A stretch of 23,253 bases of DNA from a virus, in IMG/VR virus record IMGVR_UViG_3300035698_001145, positions 1 through 23,253 of that record. One strand, given 5' to 3'. A program made the position numbers and the translations under genes. Positions 4,751-22,586 of this stretch are shown one piece after another. The notes beneath the pieces were generated by a model, which saw nothing but the letters and a program-made list of their open reading frames with translations, was not told the DNA's origin and did not search any database. Each line of letters starts with the position of its first letter. The first letter of the stretch is position 1.

Positions 4751-5272
4751 ATGACAGGCAGAATTAACGCAACAGCATTTCCACCAGCAGCTTTTGTTGG
4801 ATTTGATCATCTATTTAAAGAGTTAGACCACGTTACTAAACACGCATATGATCACTATCCACCACACAACATCCTGAAGACTGGCGAATCGGACTATCTT
4901 ATCGAATTGGCGGTAGCAGGTTTTAGTCCAGAAGGTATTGATGTTGAGCTACACGACAGAACACTTACTGTCACTGGTGAACACGTTAAACAAGGTCGCG
5001 AGTATATTCATCGTGGTATTTCCACGAAGAAATTCAAACGCACTTTTAGGCTGTCAGAACACGTGCAGGTGCACGGAGCAGATATTCAGGACGGGATACT
5101 AGCAATCAAATTGAAGTATGTTGTCCCAGAAGGTCAGCGTCCTCGTAAAATTTCAATTGGAAAAAACGAGGGTCAAAATGACACACATCCAACTACTGAG
5201 CCAGAGCTACTCCGCGAAACTAATAGCGGATATACTACTCACGATTCCAAAGGCAATCGTACTACTCTTTAA
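4751..5272 (+). CDS. Hsp20-family small heat-shock protein
   Basis: The 173 residues include an alpha-crystallin domain from about 37 to 135: HNILKTGESDYLIELAVAGF, SPEGIDVELHDRTLTVTGEH, FKRTFRLSEHVQVHGADI and the closing DGILAIKL (the G-x-L signature). A C-terminal ISI (IxI motif, in RKISIGK) is the segment that docks on neighbouring dimers in oligomers. The disordered tail is longer than in IbpA. Small heat-shock proteins are common in marine T4-like phages and are thought to protect phage or host proteins during infection. Good AAGGAG precedes the ATG. The 3' end overlaps the next small ORF by 95 bases. Confidence 0.93.
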   Translation: MTGRINATAFPPAAFVGFDHLFKELDHVTKHAYDHYPPHNILKTGESDYLIELAVAGFSPEGIDVELHDRTLTVTGEHVKQGREYIHRGISTKKFKRTFRLSEHVQVHGADIQDGILAIKLKYVVPEGQRPRKISIGKNEGQNDTHPTTEPELLRETNSGYTTHDSKGNRTTL

Positions 5273-17073: not shown

Positions 17074-17979
17074 ATGTCAATTATGGACAAACTTAAAAAG
17101 AATTCAAGACTCAAGTCTACTGACATTTTATCAGAGTCTAAATTCTTTAATGATAAGGAGCAGATTACGACATCTGTTCCTATGATTAACGTCGCTCTTT
17201 CAGGCGATGTTGATGGTGGTCTATCTCCAGGACTTACTGTTCTTGCAGGCCCATCCAAACACTTTAAAACATCATTTGCATTGCTTATGGCTGGCGCATA
17301 TTTGGATGCCAATAAAGATGCTATGATGCTCTTTTATGACTCGGAATTTGGTTCACCTCAGTCATACTTTAAGCAATTCGGTATTGATCCGTCTCGCGTA
17401 TTGCACACCCCAATTACCAATGTTGAAGAACTCAAGTTTGATCTAATCAACCAATTGGAGCAAATTGAGAGAACAGACAATGTTATTGTGGTGATTGACT
17501 CTATTGGTAACCTTGCATCCAAAAAAGAAATGGAAGATGCGCTGAATGAAAAATCGGTTGCGGATATGTCTCGGGCCAAGGCTCTTAAAGGTCTATTCCG
17601 TATGGCAACACCATATTTGGCTATGAGAAATATTCCAATGTTGGCTATTAACCACACATATCAAGAGATGGGACTATTCCCTAAGGCTATTGTTTCTGGT
17701 GGATGTGTTGTTGAAGGAACTAAGATTCAAACACCAAACGGTTTGAAGGAAGTTCAGGATTTTAATGTTGGTGAAAAGGTTGTTACTTTGAATGGCGAAA
17801 TGGAAGTTAGCCATGTATGGAATCCTGATACTCTTGAAGATGGCAATCCAGAATGCTATGAAATTGAATTTGAAGATGGTTACAAAGTAACTTGTTCAGC
17901 AGAGCACAAATTTATTATTGATGGTAACTGGGTTGCTGCTAAAGACATGGTCGAAGAGATGGATTGTGAAATAATTTAA
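17074..17979 (+). CDS. uvsX: UvsX recombinase N-extein fused to N-terminal split intein
   Basis: Residues 1-210 are the N-terminal part of UvsX, the RecA-like strand-exchange protein of T4 phages. They show Walker A GPSKHFKTS (about 59-67), LFYDSEFGSPQSYF, Walker B-like VIVVIDSIGNLASKKEMEDALNE (shown in part), and NIPMLAINHTYQE. T4 UvsX has nearly the same order and wording. After ...IVSGG the protein switches to intein sequence at Cys211 and stops at TAA 17977-17979 after 91 intein residues. The rest of UvsX is encoded from 18836. Function requires protein trans-splicing with that product. Start ATG 17074; ATG 17083 is an alternative. Confidence 0.95.
   Translation: MSIMDKLKKNSRLKSTDILSESKFFNDKEQITTSVPMINVALSGDVDGGLSPGLTVLAGPSKHFKTSFALLMAGAYLDANKDAMMLFYDSEFGSPQSYFKQFGIDPSRVLHTPITNVEELKFDLINQLEQIERTDNVIVVIDSIGNLASKKEMEDALNEKSVADMSRAKALKGLFRMATPYLAMRNIPMLAINHTYQEMGLFPKAIVSGGCVVEGTKIQTPNGLKEVQDFNVGEKVVTLNGEMEVSHVWNPDTLEDGNPECYEIEFEDGYKVTCSAEHKFIIDGNWVAAKDMVEEMDCEII
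17704..17976 (+). other. N-terminal half of a split intein (91 aa)
   Basis: Block A starts with Cys1: CVVEGTKIQTPNGLKEVQDF, then VGEKVVTLNG. Block B is VTCSAEHKFIIDG, with the Thr and His (T-x3-H spacing here) used in the first acyl shift. No endonuclease domain is fused. It resembles the N-halves of the gp41-1 class of natural split inteins (compare ICSEEHLF there). The upstream flank is ...SGG. Confidence 0.9.
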
Positions 17980-17996
17980 AAATATCTGCCACTATA

Positions 17997-18026
17997 ATAG
18001 AGTTTATCTTATATATTAAACTCTAT
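17997..18026 (+). promoter_or_regulatory. Hairpin covering the HNH endonuclease start codon
   Basis: ATAGAGTTTA (17997-18006) and TAAACTCTAT (18017-18026) are perfect 10-bp inverted arms around a 10-base AT-rich loop. The right arm contains the first two bases of the ATG at 18025. TATAAT (17993-17998) touches the left arm, so a transcript started there would lack part of the stem. Confidence 0.6.
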
Positions 18027-18711
18027 GAACTTTCAAAAAATATACGATCAATTGATAAACCACCGTAAACTTAATACTCCAGATGGCTATACAGAAACCC
18101 ATCATATAATACCAAAATGCATGGGTGGTAGTAATACATCTGATAATTTAGTAAAACTAACAGCTAGAGAACATTACATAGCTCACAAATTACTATTTCG
18201 TATACACCGAACTACTAAACTTGCTCACGCGTGGTTCGGTATGTTGAGAGTTGGTAAGGGACAGCAGCGTGAATTCAATTCGAGGATGTATGAACAAGCA
18301 TCAGCAGCAAGGGCTAAGATTATGAGTGAAAACTCTAAAGGTGCAGATAATCATTTCTTTGGAAAGACTCACACTGAGGAAACAAAACGCAAGATTAGTG
18401 AAGCTAATAAGGGCCGCGTTAAAACTCAGAAGGAGATTGACAATTGGGTTGATAAGGTTGCTAGCAAGTCAAAAAGTAATGAGCACAAGTCTAAGATAGG
18501 ACGTAAAGGCCTTGTCATGTTGCAGAACATTAACACCGGTGAGGTAGTTAGAGTTTCTCGATCAGATGCTGATGGTATGATGGGCGATTGGGCGAATCCT
18601 CGTAAACTCAACCCAGAAACGAAGTATAAATGTGATCACTGTAGTGTGATCACAACCCCAGCAAACTTAAAGAGGTGGCACAATGACAACTGCAAGCAAC
18701 GTCCCGTTTGA
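18025..18711 (+). CDS. Free-standing HNH homing endonuclease inside the fractured uvsX
   Basis: The 228 residues have an HNH nuclease core at the N-terminus: YTETHHIIPKCMGGSN (H26, H27), then SDNLVKLTAREHYIAH (N41, H50). A NUMOD3-type DNA-binding motif follows (about 109-135: NHFFGKTHTEETKRKISEAN). Then come a NUMOD1-like stretch (LVMLQNINTGEVVRVSRSDA) and a C-terminal zinc-finger-like CDHC...H...C, as in other phage HNH enzymes. It is not fused to the intein but lies between the two intein genes, where it would drive homing of the whole arrangement into intein-free uvsX. No clear Shine-Dalgarno; a hairpin hides the start codon. Confidence 0.92.
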   Translation: MNFQKIYDQLINHRKLNTPDGYTETHHIIPKCMGGSNTSDNLVKLTAREHYIAHKLLFRIHRTTKLAHAWFGMLRVGKGQQREFNSRMYEQASAARAKIMSENSKGADNHFFGKTHTEETKRKISEANKGRVKTQKEIDNWVDKVASKSKSNEHKSKIGRKGLVMLQNINTGEVVRVSRSDADGMMGDWANPRKLNPETKYKCDHCSVITTPANLKRWHNDNCKQRPV

Positions 18712-18832
18712 ATCCCTCGATAATGATTTATACTTTAAGTATCTTGAACAAGCTGATAAGTTGATATCTAAGGGATATTATGATACAATGAATTGGCTAA
18801 ACAAATTTATATTACTCGTCAGAAGGAAATGA
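18683..18832 (+). CDS. Small ORF (49 aa) in the fractured uvsX locus
   Basis: ATG 18683 lies in the last codons of the HNH gene (29-base overlap), with AGAGG about 9 bases upstream. The TGA at 18830-18832 is 3 bases before the C-intein ATG. The product, MTTASNVPFESLDNDLYFKY then LEQADKLISKGYYDTMNWLN and a basic hydrophobic end (FILLVRRK), looks like a helical small protein. No family recognised. Its termination next to the AAGGAAATG of the C-intein gene could couple translation of the second uvsX half. Confidence 0.5.
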   Translation: MTTASNVPFESLDNDLYFKYLEQADKLISKGYYDTMNWLNKFILLVRRK

Positions 18833-18835
18833 AAA

Positions 18836-18952
18836 ATGAAAGTTAAAACAATTAAGCGGGTGGGTCGCAAGCCAGTATACGACCTATCAATTAATAGTGA
18901 CAATTACGATGAACAACAATATGTTCTAGAAAATGGTGTTGTAACCCATAAC
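18836..18952 (+). other. C-terminal half of a split intein (39 aa)
   Basis: Block F is RVGRKPVYDLSINSDNY and block G is ENGVVTHN, followed by Thr as the +1 extein nucleophile (codon 18953-18955). Penultimate His and terminal Asn, both needed for Asn cyclisation, are intact. With the 91-residue N-half the intein totals 130 residues, a minimal splicing domain without an endonuclease insert. Confidence 0.9.
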
Positions 18953-19378
18953 ACAGGAATTTATTATTCAGCAGATAATATCTGGATTCTTGGCCGTCGT
19001 CAGACAAAAACTGGCACAGAAGTAACTGGCTATGATTTTGTTATTAATGTAGAAAAGTCTCGATATGTAAAAGAGAAATCCAAAATTCCTATCTCTGTAT
19101 CTTGGGACGGCGGTGTTGAAAAATACTCTGGCTTGCTTGAAGCCGGGATGGCAGGTGGTTATGTTTCTAAGCCAGGTGCTGGTTGGTATTGTCGTGTTGA
19201 TCAAGAGACAGGCGAGTTGGTTGATCCTAAGAAACGCGAAAAAGATACTAAGTGTGCTGAGTTCTGGGATCCAATCTTTGCCGAAACAGACTTTAAAGAG
19301 TTCTTGAAAAAGCAATACCAGATTGGTCATAAATCTCTTGTTGATATGGATGCTATTATTGAACAAGAAGGCGAGTAA
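18836..19378 (+). CDS. uvsX: C-terminal split intein fused to UvsX C-extein
   Basis: Residues 1-39 are the C-terminal intein half, ending in His38-Asn39. Residues 40-180 are the C-terminal part of UvsX: TGIYYSADNIWILGRRQ, FVINVEKSRYVKEKSKIPI and GGYVSKPGAGWYC. They match T4 UvsX (TGPMYSADTVFIIGKRQ, FVLNVEKSRTVKEKSK) immediately after the point where the first half leaves off. Trans-splicing joins 210 + 141 = 351 residues, an ordinary UvsX length. AAGGAAATGAAA precedes the ATG. The stop overlaps the next ATG (TAATG). Confidence 0.95.
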   Translation: MKVKTIKRVGRKPVYDLSINSDNYDEQQYVLENGVVTHNTGIYYSADNIWILGRRQTKTGTEVTGYDFVINVEKSRYVKEKSKIPISVSWDGGVEKYSGLLEAGMAGGYVSKPGAGWYCRVDQETGELVDPKKREKDTKCAEFWDPIFAETDFKEFLKKQYQIGHKSLVDMDAIIEQEGE

Positions 19379-21057: not shown

Positions 21058-21363
21058 ATGGGTAAAGGTAAAGGCGGCAAGTCGAAAGGCTTTATTTCAC
21101 AGGGCAAGCACTCAAACGTGAGTGTTGGCACAAAAGCGGCGGCTCGCTCTGCTTATAAAGCATCTGGCCAACGCCTACTAAACCAACTTGACGCAAGCCG
21201 CAAAGGTAAGCGCACCAAGATTGTAATGGAAAATCCTAACAAAGAGGAAACTAATCGCCAGTTTATCTCTGTTGAAGGTAAGCAGTGGTTTAAACCGGAA
21301 TTTGCTCCAGAAAAGAGTAAGAAGAAGAACAACGCACTAGCCTCGGAGTATGACATCGCATGA
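21058..21363 (+). CDS. Small basic hypothetical protein (101 aa)
   Basis: Very rich in Lys, Gly and Ser. The start MGKGKGGKSKGFISQGKHSN and the stretch KAAARSAYKASGQRLLNQLDASRKG suggest a nucleic-acid-binding or virion-associated protein, but no domain is recognised. A strong AAGGAG precedes the ATG and its stop overlaps thyX (ATGA). It follows gp41 by 17 bases and is probably co-transcribed. Confidence 0.75.
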   Translation: MGKGKGGKSKGFISQGKHSNVSVGTKAAARSAYKASGQRLLNQLDASRKGKRTKIVMENPNKEETNRQFISVEGKQWFKPEFAPEKSKKKNNALASEYDIA

Positions 21364-22040
21364 AGTATGCAGAACCAAATGCATTTCTAGTAGTTCAACC
21401 AGCGGCTGCAGAGGAATTTAAGGAGCACTTTGATGACACACTTGAGCTTATTGCCTACTGTGCCCGAGTATCTAACCCAGCTAACCAGTTCAACAACGAA
21501 AGCGGAGAAAAACTCGTCCGATACCTCGTTAAACACAAACACTGGTCACCACTTGAGATGTGTAACGCCACAATCGGCATCGACACGACGAGGGACATTG
21601 CGCGGCAGATCCTCAGACACAGAAGCTTCTATTTCCAGGAGTTTAGCCAGCGCTACGCCGATCCTAACGACCTTGATGTTTCCTTTGTTCTAAGAGAAGC
21701 GCGACTTCAAGATCCCAAGAATCGTCAGAATAGCATTGCAAATTCTGATAAGGAGCTTGAAAAAACTTGGGCTATGAAACAGACTCAGATCATTCACGAA
21801 GCAAAACTTGCATACAAATGGGCTATTGATAATGGAATTGCAAAGGAACAAGCACGGTGTGTTCTTCCAGAAGGCAATACCGTAAGTAAAGTGTATATGA
21901 ACGGCACTTTACGATCCTGGGTTCACTATGTTGAATTGCGCTCTGGGAATGGGACACAAAAGGAGCATATTGAAGTTGCTCGATGTGTTGCAGAAGCAAT
22001 CTCTAAAATCTTCCCTATGATTGATGAGTTTGTTGAATAA
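21360..22040 (+). CDS. thyX: Flavin-dependent thymidylate synthase ThyX
   Basis: Converts dUMP to dTMP using FAD, NADPH and methylenetetrahydrofolate. The ThyX signature RHRSFYFQEFSQR (about residues 86-98) fits the RHR-x7-S-x-R consensus; the Ser usual after RHRxx is Tyr or Phe here. HWSPLEMCNATIGIDTTRDIARQIL precedes it (in part), and ARCVLPEGNTVSKVYMNGTLRSW contains the substrate-binding region. The 226-residue length is normal. T4 itself uses ThyA, so ThyX is a feature shared with cyanophages and other marine T4-like phages. ATGA overlap with the previous gene. Confidence 0.96.
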   Translation: MKYAEPNAFLVVQPAAAEEFKEHFDDTLELIAYCARVSNPANQFNNESGEKLVRYLVKHKHWSPLEMCNATIGIDTTRDIARQILRHRSFYFQEFSQRYADPNDLDVSFVLREARLQDPKNRQNSIANSDKELEKTWAMKQTQIIHEAKLAYKWAIDNGIAKEQARCVLPEGNTVSKVYMNGTLRSWVHYVELRSGNGTQKEHIEVARCVAEAISKIFPMIDEFVE

Positions 22041-22052
22041 TATTTAAAAAAG

Positions 22053-22110
22053 TGGTTTACATTCCTTAAATATGGTTTATATAAATAACTATAAAAAGGA
22101 ATGTAAACCA
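22053..22110 (+). promoter_or_regulatory. 15-bp inverted repeat around a late promoter, sequestering the sleB ribosome binding site
   Basis: Left arm 22053-22067 and right arm 22096-22110 are perfect reverse complements of 15 bases (core GGTTTACATTCC / GGAATGTAAACC). The 28-base loop contains TATAAATA (22080-22087), identical to the T4 late consensus. The right arm holds AAGGA and the A of the ATG at 22110. The left arm holds a TTTACA 18 bases before TATAAA, so it may also act as a sigma-70 -35 element. Confidence 0.75.
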
Positions 22111-22586
22111 TGAGAGCAGTAAACATAATGTCTGGAATGATTAACGGAACTATTATTGGACTTACACTTGCGGGTTGTGTGGCATTTAGTGAAGCAAAAG
22201 CAGCCCAACTTGAGTGTCTTGCAAGAAATATTTACTTCGAGGCAAGAAGTGAATCAGTGGAAGGTCAACGAGCAGTTGCTCACGTCACTATGAATCGTGT
22301 AGAACATAGCTATTGGCCGAATACGGTTTGTGAAGTTGTTTATCAACCTTACCAGTTTTCTTGGACACATCTTGTAAAAGATCAAGTTCCGTTTGATAAA
22401 AAGTTATATGCAAAGGTTTACAAAGTCGCGGAAGAAGTGTATAATAAAGAACACAAAGACAACACAGATGGGTCTACATTCTATTATGCAGATTACATTG
22501 CAATGCCTCATTGGGCAAAACAGATGGAAAAGGTTGGTCAAATTGACACACACATTTTCTTTAAATGGGATGGAACTTGGGACTAA
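22110..22586 (+). CDS. SleB-like cell-wall hydrolase (Hydrolase_2 family)
   Basis: The 158 residues start with a hydrophobic signal-like segment (GTIIGLTLAGCVAFSEAKAA; cleavage after AKA is plausible, or a lipobox-like LAGC). The SleB/CwlJ domain follows: LECLARNIYFEARSESVEGQ with the catalytic Glu region, AVAHVTMNRV, WPNTVCEVVYQPYQFSW, and an Ala/Tyr-rich C-terminal part. The family cleaves peptidoglycan, probably as a lytic transglycosylase. It may be the phage lysis enzyme, exported by the host. Expression appears controlled by the inverted repeat and TATAAATA just upstream. ATG 22128 and 22137 are possible alternative starts. Confidence 0.9.
   Translation: MRAVNIMSGMINGTIIGLTLAGCVAFSEAKAAQLECLARNIYFEARSESVEGQRAVAHVTMNRVEHSYWPNTVCEVVYQPYQFSWTHLVKDQVPFDKKLYAKVYKVAEEVYNKEHKDNTDGSTFYYADYIAMPHWAKQMEKVGQIDTHIFFKWDGTWD

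Follow-up and report, generated by a model that had tools for sequence, protein, structure and literature searches.

The window, by which we mean the whole stretch of DNA analysed here (23,253 nucleotides), covers positions 1-23,253 of the IMG/VR record IMGVR_UViG_3300035698_001145. From its gene content, which includes gp44, gp62, RegA (PF01818), Hsp20, gp43, gp45, an interrupted UvsX and gp41, the phage can be regarded as T4-like, and the nearest named phage is C48C1. The uvsX gene (17074-19378) is split by an intein-like insertion with an HNH/NUMOD3 endonuclease ORF at 18025-18711. The gene order gp41-thyX-(x)-sleB-dNMP kinase is common to the IMG/VR relatives, the nearest of which (L095) shows 88% identity in gp41 and 61% in sleB, and the start position of sleB is the same in relatives. 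The sleB product is a PF07486 enzyme and does not belong to PF00959, the T4 lysozyme family, in agreement with the preliminary description, which had taken the hydrolase to be unrelated to T4 gene e. As for an alternative lysin of the PF00959 family, none was detected in the three relative contigs G002, G003 and G004 (73, 78 and 160 kb), and one was found in C48C1. The beginning of the sleB product (22110-22190) is a hydrophobic N-terminus with an LAGC lipobox-like motif, and the SleB N-termini of several relatives carry IIGC, LGAC or LIAC, a pattern which suggests export of the lipoprotein or signal-arrest type. The features of the region are collected in Table 1.

Table 1. Genes and leader features of the thyX-sleB region in the window.
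Feature	Position	Strand	Basis
thyX, flavin-dependent thymidylate synthase; co-directional upstream gene, source of putative read-through	21360-22040	+	PF02511, E 1e-39
Left arm, TGGTTTACATTCCTT	22053-22067	+	half of perfect inverted repeat
TTTACA inside left arm, putative -35 box of the clade early (sigma70-type) promoter	22056-22061	+	consensus strand bias; same box in relatives' sleB leaders
Inner weak stem around promoter box, 7 pairs, G-U included	22071-22093	+	RNA fold
TATAAATA, T4-type late promoter box	22080-22087	+	exact motif match; clade strand bias
Predicted late +1; leader AAAAAGGAAUGUAAACC-AUG	22093	+	T4 rule; inferred
Right arm, AAGGAATGTAAACCA, holding Shine-Dalgarno AAGGA and A of start codon	22096-22110	+	sequence, repeat search, fold
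sleB-like cell wall hydrolase / endolysin, 158 aa	22110-22586	+	PF07486, E 5e-26; PHROG 938 endolysin, E 2e-26

The 69-nt gap between thyX and sleB harbors a perfect 15-bp inverted repeat whose arms are separated by a 28-nt spacer. It is the sole perfect repeat of at least 15 bp in the window when loops of up to 60 nt are allowed, and no such repeat appeared anywhere in 300 dinucleotide-preserving shuffles of the window. When the read-through leader was folded as RNA, the stem formed at -24.9 kcal/mol (z -7.6) and the start region was buried. The preliminary description had stated that the repeat buries both the AAGGA and the AUG of sleB; this holds fully for the Shine-Dalgarno sequence (22096-22100), which lies entirely within the right arm, and nearly for the start codon, of which A22110 alone belongs to the perfect repeat while U22111 pairs with G22052 (G-U) in a longer fold. 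The right arm has another ATG at 22101, where start and stop codons adjoin (AUGUAA) and a Shine-Dalgarno sequence would have no space. No terminator-like site is listed on the + strand of the gap, and no Rfam family matches the stem. An intrinsic terminator was ruled out, as no U-tract follows the stem, and an invertible promoter switch was set aside, the segment being just 28 nt and an inverted copy not being seen.

During the accessibility analysis, we computed dGopen, the predicted cost of opening the region from -15 to +3 around the start, with the T4 gene e leader as positive control. For sleB, the cost was 17.8 kcal/mol in RNA reading through from thyX and 1.8 kcal/mol in RNA starting at 22093, which bears out the earlier claim that a transcript begun in the loop frees the ribosome binding site (RBS). 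The control gave a comparable picture, with 15.0 kcal/mol in the read-through RNA against 3.9 kcal/mol, and 1.4 kcal/mol from its second late promoter, so the likeness to gene e that had been drawn from the sequence stands up in the computation. Among 199 genes with a Shine-Dalgarno sequence in the window and the three relative contigs, the sleB start was the most deeply buried (rank 1), and the sleB leader also ranked first for pairing of the RBS with the upstream side when compared over the 130 TATAAATA sites that are followed by a gene in the fetched loci taken together. Hiding of the RBS in the read-through RNA is therefore well supported by the folding model. The second most buried start of the 199 is that of a pyrimidine-dimer-glycosylase-like gene (PF03013; L415:6347-6420, minus strand), which has a near-perfect RBS-hiding repeat with the early promoter TTGACA..TATAAT in its loop.

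With reference to the promoter in the loop, the exact T4 late motif named in the preliminary description was recovered. Since the T4 rule places the box at -13 to -6 of the start (PMC2988020), the predicted late start is A22093, in line with the earlier estimate. Taken by itself, the late motif may be a product of chance, because the loop is very AT-rich: the probability of TATAAATA in a loop of such composition is 4% (mononucleotide) to 11% (Markov), and the window's total of four exact copies does not exceed chance. The weight of the motif consequently comes from its position and its clade-wide strand bias and not from its mere presence. Over 335 kb of the clade, it occurred 52 times on the gene strand and 10 times on the reverse strand, a bias absent for the reversed pattern in the longer records. 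In the relatives' contigs it lies 24-75 nt upstream of the genes for tail sheath, gp20, the gp21 region and other late genes. The distance from the box to the ATG is bimodal over all loci, with 11 cases at 11-13 nt, few at 14-22 and most at 23-57, and the 30 nt observed for sleB falls within this main mode of the late genes. The search for late factors succeeded in part: gp55 homologues (PHROG 234, late sigma factor), 58-62% identical to that of phage C48C1, were found in all three relative contigs; gp33 was not identified. The record, a 23-kb fragment, does not include the late genes, and the window's own gp55 is accordingly not visible. The presence of gp55, together with strand-biased TATAAATA before structural genes, indicates from gene content and motif placement that the clade has a T4-type late transcription system, which makes a late promoter plausible here, and late timing of the internal promoter is probable.

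On these grounds, the sleB leader is most likely a promoter-in-hairpin translation gate of the T4 gene e kind placed on an unrelated lysin. Early transcripts from the gp41-thyX operon would run on into sleB, and the read-through RNA, carrying both arms, would fold the 15-bp stem and prevent ribosomes from loading on sleB. Polymerase programmed by gp55 would most likely start within the loop at TATAAATA, at about 22093, and the resulting RNA, devoid of the left arm, would leave AAGGA and AUG free for translation. The lysin would thus be made late, with the avoidance of early lysis as the presumed benefit. We consider it probable that sleB is not translated from the read-through messages and that the translated RNA arises from a gp55-dependent start near 22093; the read-through itself, the start position, the late polymerase as the active one and the benefit of avoiding early lysis are what we infer. 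The observation made in the preliminary description is confirmed and its interpretation as a whole is partly supported; the internal promoter is likely, though not proven, to be late, and early and late elements overlap in the leader sequence.

This overlap gives rise to the main alternatives. The clade's early promoter motif, found before replication genes, is TTTACA-N17-TATAAT (24 against 2 by strand; T or G before the box), and the TTTACA of the left arm reads as its -35 box, a conserved role that the passing mention of this box in the preliminary description had missed. The first six bases of TATAAATA are TATAAA, a possible weak sigma70 -10 box, 18 nt from TTTACA. The gate could accordingly be real with an internal promoter that is mainly the clade's early sigma70-type (-10 TATAAA or TATATA), TATAAATA being incidental or secondary, in which case the stem would just uncouple sleB from thyX read-through and impose no late timing. 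We regard this as unlikely, though several observations speak for it. Most related sleB leaders have an early-type promoter at the corresponding spot, with a 17-nt spacer and without TATAAATA, and TTTACA with 17-nt spacing to the -10 box is kept in L087, L092, L098, L133, L134, L345, L383 and the L325 group. The early score of the window's leader (13.3, beside a late score of 12.6) has a background p of 0.004; in G004, a denV-like gene has its RBS hidden by a repeat whose loop encloses a clear early promoter; and an early promoter is predicted for the lysin-like gene of Melnitz (PMC9004378). Against it, the spacer in the window is 18 nt, the -10 box lacks the last T and the score stands at the 10th percentile of the clade early promoters of the training set, whereas the late box is perfect. 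A further reading, which we hold to be quite improbable, is that overlapping early and late promoters keep free transcript available for much of infection, with the silencing of operon read-through as the sole role of the stem. Both elements do share one box in the window, and a weaker early and late form, TATAAGTA, occupies the corresponding position in the L086/L325 group. Overlapping early and late control at one start region has been discussed for RB49 and S-PM2 and proposed for their 'middle' genes, though an RBS-hiding stem is not in their description (PMC2984593). Of the two halves, however, the early one is weak in the window, and dual use is itself a proposal. A start from either promoter, at or after the loop, would leave the RBS free, and a weakened early promoter over the late box may yield some earlier free transcript. 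Judged by its motifs, the sleB leader resembles an early promoter site that has shifted towards late use, or else a site of the RB49 and S-PM2 kind where early and late promoters overlap.

Readings that dispense with the gate fare worse. The repeat might be a protein-binding RNA or DNA site (RegA), an RNase III site or a thermosensor, which appears very unlikely. RegA is encoded in the window, and AUGUAA, the core in the RegA SELEX consensus (PMC3014915), occurs in the right arm at 22101-22106, but the sites that RegA binds lack structure (PMC3014915), and the aligned leaders of relatives do not contain AUGUAA; the lack of an Rfam match and of a U-tract also counts against such other functions. 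That the repeat arose by chance and has no function is scarcely credible: the stem is indeed not conserved in the nearest relative, yet the shuffled windows contained no such repeat, and this one coincides exactly with the RBS and encloses a promoter.

The promoter-in-hairpin gate remains our preferred reading, and its distribution among relatives was examined. The preliminary description had looked to relatives for conservation and covariation of the arms. An exact arm search of IMG/VR returned no copies from which covariation in the window's own stem could be read. In L095, the closest relative, TATAAATA is missing and a strong stem is absent, the burial being weak (z 1.4), and the gated arrangement is not conserved in the close relatives in the way that it is among T-evens. 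RBS burial by unrelated arms, beyond that of shuffled upstream sequence, was noticed in L133, L134, L086 and L325 (z 3.2 to 4.8), whereas significant burial was absent from L087, L092, L104, L106, L108, L112, L345 and L006. The 11-bp stem of L133 (TCCTGCCTCGG/CCGAGGCAGGA) was recovered in a pattern search solely from its own record and an unrelated GC-rich record. Six leaders of the L325 group keep the stem that pairs with the Shine-Dalgarno sequence, with one two-sided change among five outer pairs, a covariation not beyond shuffles (70/500). In the SleB tree, leaders that bury the RBS are scattered over several branches amid non-burying ones, a pattern that fits repeated gain and loss and not one conserved element. 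An invariant 24-nt ATAGTATAAGTACTATAAAAAGAGG-like block with a near-palindrome lies upstream of sleB in L325 (2470-2500), L422, L423, L424, L426 and L429, and the proteins downstream of it diverge by as much as about 30%. In a sister SleB clade (L326:2483-2497, L328:2243-2257, L329:2483-2497 and L331:2483-2497; also L335 and L336), the late box lies 4-5 nt before the sleB ATG, with the variants AATAAATA in L335 and a box overlapping the ATG in L336. These sleB starts show no clear Shine-Dalgarno sequence, and the two features together predict a leaderless late lysin mRNA.

Among the marks of gated leaders of the T4 gene e type are 5' ends that have been mapped and a roughly 100-fold repression of translation. 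By computation, the sleB leader resembles them in that the Shine-Dalgarno sequence and AUG are sequestered in the read-through RNA, and in that the late box is so placed that the left strand is missing from the predicted transcript, whose RBS is then free. Such an RBS gate is documented for T4 e, soc, 49 and I-TevI (PMC3014915; PMC2988022), the gene e leader having been described by McPheeters in 1986 (reviewed in PMC3014915), and a survey of gene e leaders noted that many T4-type phages are without gene e (PMC3014915). As in T4 gene e, where TATAAATA lies within or just after the left strand of the stem, a late lytic enzyme is situated within an early operon, and the opening costs of the two read-through RNAs are similar. 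Unlike the T4 enzyme, the window's hydrolase has an export-like N-terminus; its leader has one perfect late box where T4 e has two, its left arm carries an early -35 box, and homology between the leader sequences was not seen. The sleB gate works like the T4 e gate and is not homologous to it. The leaders of T4 I-TevI/II/III and segB and of Aeh1 mobE also have an RBS-hiding hairpin in early or middle read-through RNA with a late promoter inside (PMC2988022), these genes, in contrast to sleB, being homing endonucleases. At L095:4918-4967, a hairpin (CTATCCTAT-TATAAATAGAA-ATAGGATAG) with a late box in its loop precedes an HNH endonuclease gene (at 4965), possibly a case of this T4/Aeh1 homing-endonuclease type. 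In the one literature library searched, this gate on a PF07486 lysin was not reported, an absence there that is not proof.

The export-like N-terminus raises the prospect that the enzyme may act without the holin gate that guards T4 lysozyme, and such a lack would make translational timing more important. We put forward, as a tentative and rather doubtful proposal, that the lysin genes of this clade have been proofed against operon read-through in several separate ways, namely by unrelated stems (window, L133, L134 and the L325 group) and by the leaderless late message of the sister clade; if so, the lysis clock would be set by a repeatedly reinvented 5'-end design. If the sleB gate operates as proposed, a sequence-only rule, a promoter inside an RBS-hiding stem, would locate late genes that lie isolated within the early operons of uncultured phages. 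The gene e gate of T4 would then be no quirk of one lysozyme lineage, and unrelated lysins in early operons would be seen to arrive at the same solution.
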